The notes beneath the pieces are model-generated. The model did not search any database. It was not told the DNA's origin and saw only the letters and a list, made by a program, of their open reading frames with translations. Of a stretch of 64,000 nt of DNA, positions 3,930 to 60,033 are shown piece after piece. Made by a program: the position numbers and the translations under genes. Position 1 is the stretch's first letter. Each line of letters starts with the position of its first letter. The DNA comes from Salinigranum rubrum (GTDB lineage Archaea; Halobacteriota; Halobacteria; Halobacteriales; Haloferacaceae), in NCBI RefSeq assembly GCF_002906575.1, contig NZ_CP026310.1, forward strand, positions 124,001 through 188,000, read 5' to 3'.

Positions 3930-4260
3930 GGCACCGTCCAGTTAGACCAGTTTGAGACGCGAGCCTCAGAAATCTACGATCTCTGAGACCGGCGCAGCCG
4001 ACGTGGTCGCGGACGACGAACCCGCTGATAAAAATGGACGGCGAATGGTCGTGGTTGTATACGGCAATACAGCTGACTCGACGTTGTTGCTCGCTGTCGA
4101 CCGCTTCTACACGTGGGTCGGAAGTCGGGTTCTCGTCGCCCGTGATATTGCATTTATCTTACGCTTCTACCCCGTTCAACGACCGCAGCGAGCGCTCGAT
4201 GAGCGACCGCCAGTCGACGTCGTTGGCGAGACAATCCTTCGGCTTGTTCCAAGTAATCTG
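3930..4260 (+). mobile_element. IS6-family transposase remnant, internally deleted
   Basis: Starts with the element end GGCACCGTCCAGTTAGACCA and then jumps into the middle of the transposase. A decayed copy of the hairpin seen in the other IS6 copies lies at 3963-3999. Scattered frames then give NGEWSWLYTAIQL, FYTWVGSR and QRPQRALDERPP, which correspond to the conserved DDE-transposase pieces NGEWSWLY, FHNSWVGSR and QRPHRALDGRTP. The 5' half of the gene is deleted and several stops interrupt the rest. It is head-to-head with the fragment at 3425-3632. Confidence 0.7.
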
Positions 4261-21452: not shown

Positions 21453-21659
21453 ATCGGTTTCGCAGATAGCGAGTCGCGTGAGGCGTTCTACGACCTCCTG
21501 CACGACCTGAACCACGAGGGTATGACCGTCCTCCTTATCGAACACGACATCGGAATCGTCACGACGCACGCCTCGGAGGTGGCCTGTCTCAACCACGAGT
21601 TGTTCTTCCACGGCGACCCCGAGACGTTCGTCGAGACCGACGCGCTGTCGAAATCATAG
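21453..21659 (+). pseudogene. Fragment of zinc/manganese ABC transporter ATPase (ZnuC-like), C-terminus
   Basis: The frame reads SREAFYDLLHDLNHEGMTVL, LIEHDIGIVTTHASEVACLN and then HELFFHGDPETFVETDALSK to a stop. This is the D-loop/switch-histidine region and tail of ZnuC-type metal transporter ATPases (LIEHDIG carries the switch His). Everything before it, including Walker A, is absent. The fragment is squeezed between two minus-strand IS6 relics, which probably deleted the rest of a metal-uptake operon. Confidence 0.75.
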
Positions 21660-22374
21660 TAGTGGACGAGCACTGCAAACCACTGGCGGACGCTCAGCCG
21701 ACTGCCGACCCACGAGTTGTGGAAGCGGCCGACGTGCATCTTCGGTGTTTGAAACCACTTTCAATCAGGTTTCGGTCGGTGTAGTCGACCTGGCCGGACA
21801 GTCCTAATCGAGCAAATGCAGTCCGGTAGCCGAAGGCATCGGCCAGAAACACTGTGTTTGTACAGTCGTGTTTCTCGGTGACTGCATGGAGAAATGCAGT
21901 CGCCGGACCGGTTCCATGTTGCTCGAACACGGCGACGTGCAGAATCAACTTTGTGTCGACGTTCATTGCAACATATGAACAAGACCATTCGCCGTTGATC
22001 TTGACAGCGGTCTCGCGACCGCCTCGGCTGCGCCGTCCTCAGAAATCGAAGATTTCTGATGGGCTGCACGAGAGCTTTGCTCTCGTGAACGACGTCGGGT
22101 CGCAACCACTGTCAGCGATTCGATGTATCCATTGGTGAATCGTTTGAAACGAGCGTTTGACGCCGCGAATTCGAAGAACCGCTTCTGTTTCTCGAAGCGA
22201 AAGTCCCGCCGCGTGGAACCGGACGGCGAACGCCCTGATGGGCGCCGCCGTCCGCTCACGCTCCCAACATTCTTCGTAATCCGCCGCAAAATAGTGACTG
22301 AGCAGGTCTGCGGGCGACATTCCAAATTAACTTACCATCTGCTCGTTCCTCAAACTGGCCTAACTAGACGTGCC
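21657..22374 (-). mobile_element. IS6-family element, frameshifted and 3'-truncated
   Basis: The transposase begins MSPADLLSHYFAADYEECWE at 22320 and runs to HQWIHRIADSGCDPTSFTRA, where a 69-nt double-hairpin block (22026-22094) adds a stop. Other frames then give AVKINGEWSC-like sequence, NVDTKLILHVAVFEQHGTGP, FLADAFGYRTAFARLGLSG, VDYTDRNLIES and HVGRFHNSWVGSRLSVRQWF. It ends abruptly at VHYYD, where the znuC fragment begins, so the right end is missing. The left element end is at 22361-22374 (TAACTAGACGTGCC). Confidence 0.8.
22026..22094 (-). repeat. 69-nt double-hairpin block inside IS6 relic (copy 1)
   Basis: Identical over all 69 bases to 59519-59587. It contains two perfect stem-loops: CGAGAGC-AAA-GCTCTCG and TCAGAAATC-TTC-GATTTCTGA, followed by GGACGGCGCAGCC. 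The surrounding IS6 sequences of the two copies differ at roughly a quarter or more of positions. A decayed version of the second hairpin lies at 3963-3999. Confidence 0.85.
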
Positions 22375-59449: not shown

Positions 59450-60033
59450 CATGGCAGAAACACACGATCACATTCTGGCAGTGGGTGCATCGAATGGCTG
59501 ATAGCGTTCCCGACCCGCCGTCGTTCACGAGAGCAAAGCTCTCGTGCAGCCCATCAGAAATCTTCGATTTCTGAGGACGGCGCAGCCAACGCGGGTCGCG
59601 GTCAACGAAACCGCTGTCCGGATCAACGGTGATCTGTCTTGTCTGTACTCTACAATATAACTCGACACAAAGTTACTGCTTGGCGTCGACCTCTCCGAAC
59701 GGCGAGGCACCGGTCCAGCAACTGAATTCCCTCGGCAGCTCACCAAGAAACATGACCTCTCAGACACCGTGTTTCTCGTCGATAGTTATGGTTATCTGAC
59801 TGCCCTCTATCGATTAGACTTGAGCGAACATCTGGATTACATTGACCAAAACCTCATGGAAGAGTGATTTCATACGCAACACGAGGATTGACCGCTTCCA
59901 TAACTCGTGGGTCGGCAGTCGAGCTGCCGTCGCCCAGAGTCTTGCACAATTCTCGTACTACTATAACGTCTAACGACCGCATCAAGCGCTAAATGATCGA
60001 ACACCAGCTGAGGCTGTTAACTAGACAGTGACC
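59450..60033 (+). mobile_element. IS6-family element, 5'-truncated and frameshifted
   Basis: Frames in order give TFWQWVHRMADSVPDPPSFT, the 69-nt hairpin block, TRVAVNETAVRINGDL in a shifted frame, DTVFLVDSYGYLTALYRLDL, DYIDQNL, TRIDRFHNSWVGSRAAVAQS and RPHQALNDRTPAEAVN-stop at 60024. Several in-frame stops and shifts are present. The right element end TAACTAGACAGTGACC is at 60018-60033. The first third of the transposase is missing. Its right end cuts into the gene at 60034-60259. Confidence 0.78.
59519..59587 (+). repeat. 69-nt double-hairpin block inside IS6 relic (copy 2)
   Basis: Base-for-base identical to the reverse complement of 22026-22094. It holds the same two perfect stem-loops (7-bp stem with AAA loop; 9-bp stem with TTC loop) and lies at the same point of the transposase gene, just after the DPP codons. 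Confidence 0.85.

Follow-up and report, generated by a model that had tools for sequence, protein, structure and literature searches.

CGTC-tagged REPs, which include Rickettsia RPE-4/RPE-6 and Neisseria dRS3, are listed for bacteria only by Di Nocera et al. 2013 (PMC3733652). The four published families carry an unpaired terminal CGTC tag (or TGTC/CCTC) and 8-9 bp stems, with a loop of 4-5 nt, a CCA tail and A-T pairs at stem positions 1-2; they occur mostly as head-to-head dimers, have intragenic copies and lack a dedicated transposase (PMC3733652). The SMRs of Haloquadratum walsbyi are non-coding elements of 80-110 bp with inverted ends unrelated to known transposons, which produce no target duplication and favor other mobile elements, IS605 palindromes among them (PMC3119063). 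For CGTC-type REPs, Rickettsia palindromic elements and haloarchaeal SMRs alike, the literature leaves the mobilizing agent open (PMC3733652, PMC3119063). Here we describe an archaeal, REP-dimer-like element that is real and apparently undescribed: our literature search, covering the main text of openly available papers, returned no report of its sequence or of REPs in haloarchaea.

The window analyzed is a 64,000-nucleotide stretch of the Salinigranum rubrum genome (NZ_CP026310.1, positions 124,001 to 188,000). Its initial annotation pointed to a 69-nt block shared by two diverged IS6 relics, and direct alignment confirmed that bases 22026-22094 (minus strand) and 59519-59587 (plus strand) are identical at 69/69 positions, while the 150 nt on either side of copy A and copy B match at only 49% and 65%. 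Chance is not the source of a 69/69 match at a flank identity of 65-75%. The two stem-loops with 3-nt loops reported for the block were recovered as 9 + 9 bp stems folding at -16.9 kcal/mol as DNA (z = -5.6), a stability reached by 0/200 shuffles. The host frames show the TGA stop codon and the frame change ascribed to the block, and the DPP codons do lie close to RVAVDE in working IS6 copies, with about 5 residues between them. The block had been taken as inserted in its entirety; an insertion is present, yet only the inner 56-58 nt move, the outer 11 nt being codons of the host.

This unit consists of CGTT, a 9-bp hairpin, the linker CAGCCCA, a second 9-bp hairpin and GGACG, and adds 56 nt net within CG...CG. 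Copy A, counted from CG to CG inclusive, spans 58 nt at 22034..22091 on the minus strand (56 nt net insertion), with hairpin 1 (CACGAGAGC-AAA-GCTCTCGTG) at 22067..22087 and hairpin 2 (TCAGAAATC-TTC-GATTTCTGA) at 22039..22059, both on the minus strand and both supported by the fold and by pair counts. Its host, an IS6-family transposase relic at 21650..22320 (minus strand) identified by tblastn and reading frames, is broken by the element insertion plus other frame changes. Copy B has the same dimensions at 59522..59579 on the plus strand (58 nt inclusive, 56 nt net). It comprises, all on this strand, the unpaired left tag CGTT (59522..59525, from the fold and the target profile), whose CG is common to element and target according to the target profile, hairpin 1 (59526..59546) and hairpin 2 (59554..59574), both from the fold, the conserved linker CAGCCCA between them (59547..59553, from alignment A1 and linker counts), and the right tag GGACG (59575..59579, reverse complement CGTCC, from end-tag counts). 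The host of copy B is a 5'-truncated IS6-family transposase relic at 59470..59975 (plus strand, tblastn and reading frames). Excising the unit from the 59519 copy leaves ...SVPDPPSAQPTRVAVNE..., the same motif that is found in working IS6 copies (DPPSAQPTRVAVDE).

A third, decayed copy of a hairpin had been placed at 3963-3999. It exists, in the same codon region of a further IS6 relic, but is confined to hairpin 2 at 3966..3986 (plus strand), where the covariance-model match is weak (E = 0.037). Another strong copy (G000:C2:212928-212996) lies on the same contig 25 kb past the window and differs at 1/69 bases, and the S. rubrum genome holds in total three strong copies and three clear diverged relatives. 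One of these relatives (G000:C1:2680096-2680148, locus L085) encodes the last residues, or C-terminal tail, of a TnpB, and this TnpB adjoins the sole Y1 transposase gene found in the S. rubrum genome.

Lining up the flanks of BLAST matches delimited the conserved unit, which has the consensus CGTT-C(hairpin 1)G-CAGCCCA-(hairpin 2)-GGACG and a length that is usually 56-62 nt counted from CG to CG (modal length 58), with 53-62 nt as the full span of core lengths. The right end is GACG in 129/130 copies (CGTC on the opposite strand), and the left end is CGTT in 115/130 and CGTC in 15/130, so that the ends form imperfect inverted repeats, CGTTC and GGACG (CGTYC...GRACG), with CG on both sides. Sublineages can be told apart by their linker and tag (GCAGCCCA/GGACG, GAGCCAA/TGACG and TCGCACA/GGACG). 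Nearly all copies are a complete inverted pair, that is, a head-to-head dimer, and the seeming single halves are full elements that narrowly fail the scan criteria. Among copies chosen through BLAST alone, and thus unselected for pairing, 99.5% of stem cells were paired, and there were 31 double-change cells compared to 5.2 in shuffles, a sign of compensatory change; pair counts from the larger alignment A1 are weaker evidence because that alignment was filtered for pairing. A scan of about 1.1 Mb of loci turned up no autonomous, cargo-bearing version. A known RNA family was rejected, as no Rfam entry matched the element.

The element is widespread among haloarchaea. Queried with the 69-mer, BLAST returned hits in 269 of 392 Halobacteriales genomes and in 44 plasmid records, which among the matches listed are exclusively haloarchaeal. 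A covariance model (R1) detected it in 106 of 117 Halobacteriales genomes (about 90%), at 1-41 copies per carrier genome, a range that is a lower bound. Across a phylum sample of 197 genomes, 32 carriers fell within Halobacteriales and 3, with weak scores, outside; this is therefore essentially a haloarchaeal family. Phages gave no match, and viral contigs gave none in a weak search with a single exact pattern. In one genome (G113, C1) 10 of 11 high-scoring copies lie on the plus strand along a 2.8-Mb chromosome, and in another (G047, C8/C9) the high-scoring copies are nearly all on the minus strand.

Searching haloarchaeal genomes and tabulating the flanks, the check proposed for the block, grouped the copies into 28 flank clusters that share no detectable similarity. 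An IS6-only feature was rejected on this basis: insertion into IS6 genes is real, restriction to them is not, and the element is nearly universal in haloarchaea. We then removed the unit, left one CG, and aligned the result to element-free homologues. Gap-free empty sites were obtained for L069 against L148 (85% over 242 nt), a reciprocal pair in which each bears an element where the other is empty, for a tnpB gene (L005 against L060, 77% over 210 nt), and for copy B of the window against L092 (79% over 143 nt); an element-free IS6 relic in the same genome aligned at 78% over 117 nt that span the junction, which is itself free of gaps. From these homologues among species-level genomes we infer that the element is mobile. 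Two further observations concern its surroundings. A larger haloarchaeal multi-copy repeat (...GGGTGGGACTCAAAGGGGC...GGCTGGGGCTTT) often bears the element at one position; it makes up a flank cluster of 33 members (including L119, L053, L079, L054 and L132), and element-free versions of it exist. Within the near-terminal palindromes of IS605-type transposons, element copies were seen at four loci (L162, L174, L149 and L150).

The flanks also define a short target. To the left of the unit, R occupies position -1 in 98% of clusters, compared to 45% before random CGs, and G occupies position -2 in 68%, compared to 38%; base preferences on the right are weaker. Insertion is thus directly 3' of RCG, mostly GRCG, in an orientation set by the target, and no target duplication was seen beyond the common CG. 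Two units can abut with one CG in common. The right end of the element, GGACG, itself resembles the target GRCG. Over the 28 flank clusters, a preference for hairpins as targets was not significant (mean percentile 0.44, KS p = 0.10). One account of these junctions invokes a very short MITE that ends in CGTYC inverted repeats, duplicates 2 bp (CG) of its target and is moved in trans by a conventional double-strand transposase or a serine recombinase. The imperfect inverted repeats and the CG on both sides, which is all that the two sides have in common, fit it, and a CG duplication would leave junctions identical to those of a shared CG. However, the target preference is stronger on the left than on the right, the stems are kept by compensatory change, the terminal repeat is only about 5 bp, and no transposon with matching ends was seen. 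Overall, we regard a MITE as unlikely.

Within IS6 genes, insertions occur at residues ~26, ~77 (the DPP site of the window) and ~125, the sole exception being one opposite-strand copy near 101; one IS6 gene (L010) bears two elements. Because locus sampling began from an IS6-borne query, IS6 genes are over-represented among these loci. Intact genes lacking the element stand between the carriers on the IS6 protein tree; by parsimony, site 77 requires at least 11 changes, site 125 at least 7 and site 26 at least 3, indicating that these sites were struck repeatedly, though some changes may be losses and the branches to decayed relics are long. The chance that ~21 free insertions among the available GRCG sites (a mean of 12 per IS6 gene) would use only three is ~3e-11, which is a rough bound since losses may be included. 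Ranked by hairpin stability within intact IS6 genes, sites 26 and 77 come near the top (mean percentiles 0.09 and 0.07), and the mean percentile at site 125 is 0.42. Working haloarchaeal IS6 genes (e.g. L192-L218) keep strong hairpins exactly at sites 26 and 77.

Copy A of the window groups with an element-free IS6 gene (support 0.96) and copy B falls in another clade (0.92). The two copies are best read as separate insertions, and as they sit in separate IS6 lineages, their 100% identity would reflect recent separate arrival, not slow divergence. A different history would have a single old insertion into an IS6 ancestor spread with IS6, immobile and held identical by gene conversion or hairpin selection. 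While the DPP site is common to many carriers and stem pairing is under constraint, the element also occupies two other IS6 sites, tnpB and 25+ other contexts, its carriers are interspersed with intact element-free genes with ~11 changes at the DPP site alone, and the flanks of copies A and B (49-65%) are too diverged for short-tract conversion. These observations make such an old insertion very improbable. Gene conversion, which the initial annotation had offered as one source of the identity, is likewise unlikely as the main cause because the neighboring host sequence is only ~65% identical. Another of its suggestions, recent site-specific insertion by a small mobile element, is supported by the many unrelated contexts (at least 28 unrelated flanks), the clean and precise empty sites, the element-free working relatives, and the same IS6 codon having been struck in several lineages. 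The single recurrent IS6 site that its check asked about proved to be the DPP site in many carriers, with two other IS6 sites in addition. Intact IS6 genes without the segment show that it is not normal coding sequence in all of them, and flanks in general are far less conserved than the block.

The usual 56-nt net insertion shifts the reading frame, and most IS6 copies that carry it are broken. In several of these hosts the downstream frames are otherwise open, which points to recent insertion. Other inserts, chiefly in tnpB, are in frame: the IS6 gene of L148 retains a 248-residue frame, and the tnpB ORFs of L014, L017, L028 and L039 stay long. These tnpB ORFs read ...RLHRAIP-DVHESDSSRAAHQKSPISE-DDATLKQ... 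where the empty homologue reads ...RPLP-DDATVKE..., and an in-frame element adds 18-20 residues: an archaeal protein, TnpB, is lengthened by palindromic elements, as happens to proteins in Rickettsia. Two different in-frame copies of the family seem to lie in a single tnpB gene (L017:755-816 and L017:1501-1559).

These effects on hosts bear on two further explanations. An RNA-level element (intron-like, recoding or regulatory) could be removed or bypassed after transcription so that transposase is still made, in line with the exact restoration of frame on unit removal at all three IS6 sites and with some split IS6 genes whose downstream ORFs are intact. But removing any clean insertion restores the frame, copies also lie outside genes, the element has no Rfam match, additional disabling mutations are present in many hosts, and inserts differ in length, some being in frame; we give this explanation almost no credence. 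Alternatively, the element might attack transposons in the manner of SMR-A, spreading mainly into mobile elements and being favored by the host since it disables them. In its favor, the hosts that could be named comprise IS6 genes, tnpB, IS605 ends and another repeat family, a frameshift results from most IS6 insertions, and SMR-A inserts in IS605 palindromes with no target duplication (PMC3119063). On the other hand, transposons are also simply tolerant sites, sampling started from an IS6 query, the tnpB insert is in frame and leaves a long ORF, and the unit measures 56 nt compared to 80-110 bp for SMRs, all of which leave this role doubtful.

Taken together, we think it likely that the block represents one copy of a palindromic element that is mobile but non-autonomous, a fixed head-to-head hairpin pair of the REP-dimer or REPIN-like kind, and that is moved in trans. 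The TnpA enzymes of IS200/IS605 and the RAYT enzymes recognize hairpin ends. By analogy with these systems, the resemblance between the GACG right end and the GRCG target, along with the conserved stems, suggests that the mobilizing enzyme probably acts in trans on a single strand. Such an enzyme would have single-stranded DNA as its substrate, recognizing both hairpins as well as the terminal GACG, and would join the unit to the 3' side of a GRCG target similar to that end. We found no dedicated transposase, and no Y1 link in 23 genomes: PF01797 (Y1_Tnp) is absent from six genomes with at least 20 copies each (G107, G047, G091, G089, G037 and G022), whereas PF01797 transposases are present in element-poor genomes. 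A resident Y1 enzyme is therefore not required for carriage. A broader proposal, which we put forward only tentatively, is that this is the first archaeal REP-dimer superfamily, with a non-Y1 mobilizer and recurrent targeting of hairpin sites in transposase genes, and so a possible parasite of, or brake on, mobile elements. The hosts belong to a genetically tractable group (Haloferax and Haloarcula relatives), and with a sharp unit, a short target rule, precise empty sites and three IS6 hot spots, the question of the mobilizer becomes directly testable.

Among known systems, the element is most like the head-to-head dimers of CGTC-tagged REPs and the SMRs of Haloquadratum, though it lacks some of the traits that define each. 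With CGTC-tagged REPs the element shares a CGTC-type terminal tag at its right end, 9 + 9 bp stems, head-to-head dimers, intragenic copies and the lack of any transposase of its own found so far. It differs in its loops, mostly 3 nt, in having no CCA tail, in a left tag that is usually CGTT, in the linker CAGCCCA and in its form, a fixed heterodimer in nearly all cases; the first two stem positions are A-T pairs only in hairpin 2 of TGACG-end copies with AAT before the stem. Given these departures in loop length, tail and stem A-T pairing, we do not count it as a member of these families. Like SMRs (HqIRS40-43/55) as these are described in print, it is haloarchaeal and non-coding, has terminal inverted repeats (CGTYC/GRACG), makes no target duplication beyond CG and targets other mobile elements, including IS605 palindromes; its core of 53-62 nt is shorter than the 80-110 bp of SMRs. 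Near-terminal hairpins, the absence of target duplication, directional insertion 3' of GRCG and a GACG right end resembling the target recall PATEs and IS200-IS605 elements. Unlike these, it has terminal inverted repeats, no full-length parent or split cargo version was found, and its ends differ from those of IS605 in its own genome (L081). GTAG REPs and REPINs are likewise inverted pairs of tagged hairpins that jump as a unit, but the tags here are CGTY/GACG rather than GTAG, and many element-rich genomes, unlike the REPIN/RAYT system, have no Y1 transposase. Finally, as with Rickettsia palindromic elements, some copies lie in frame within protein genes.
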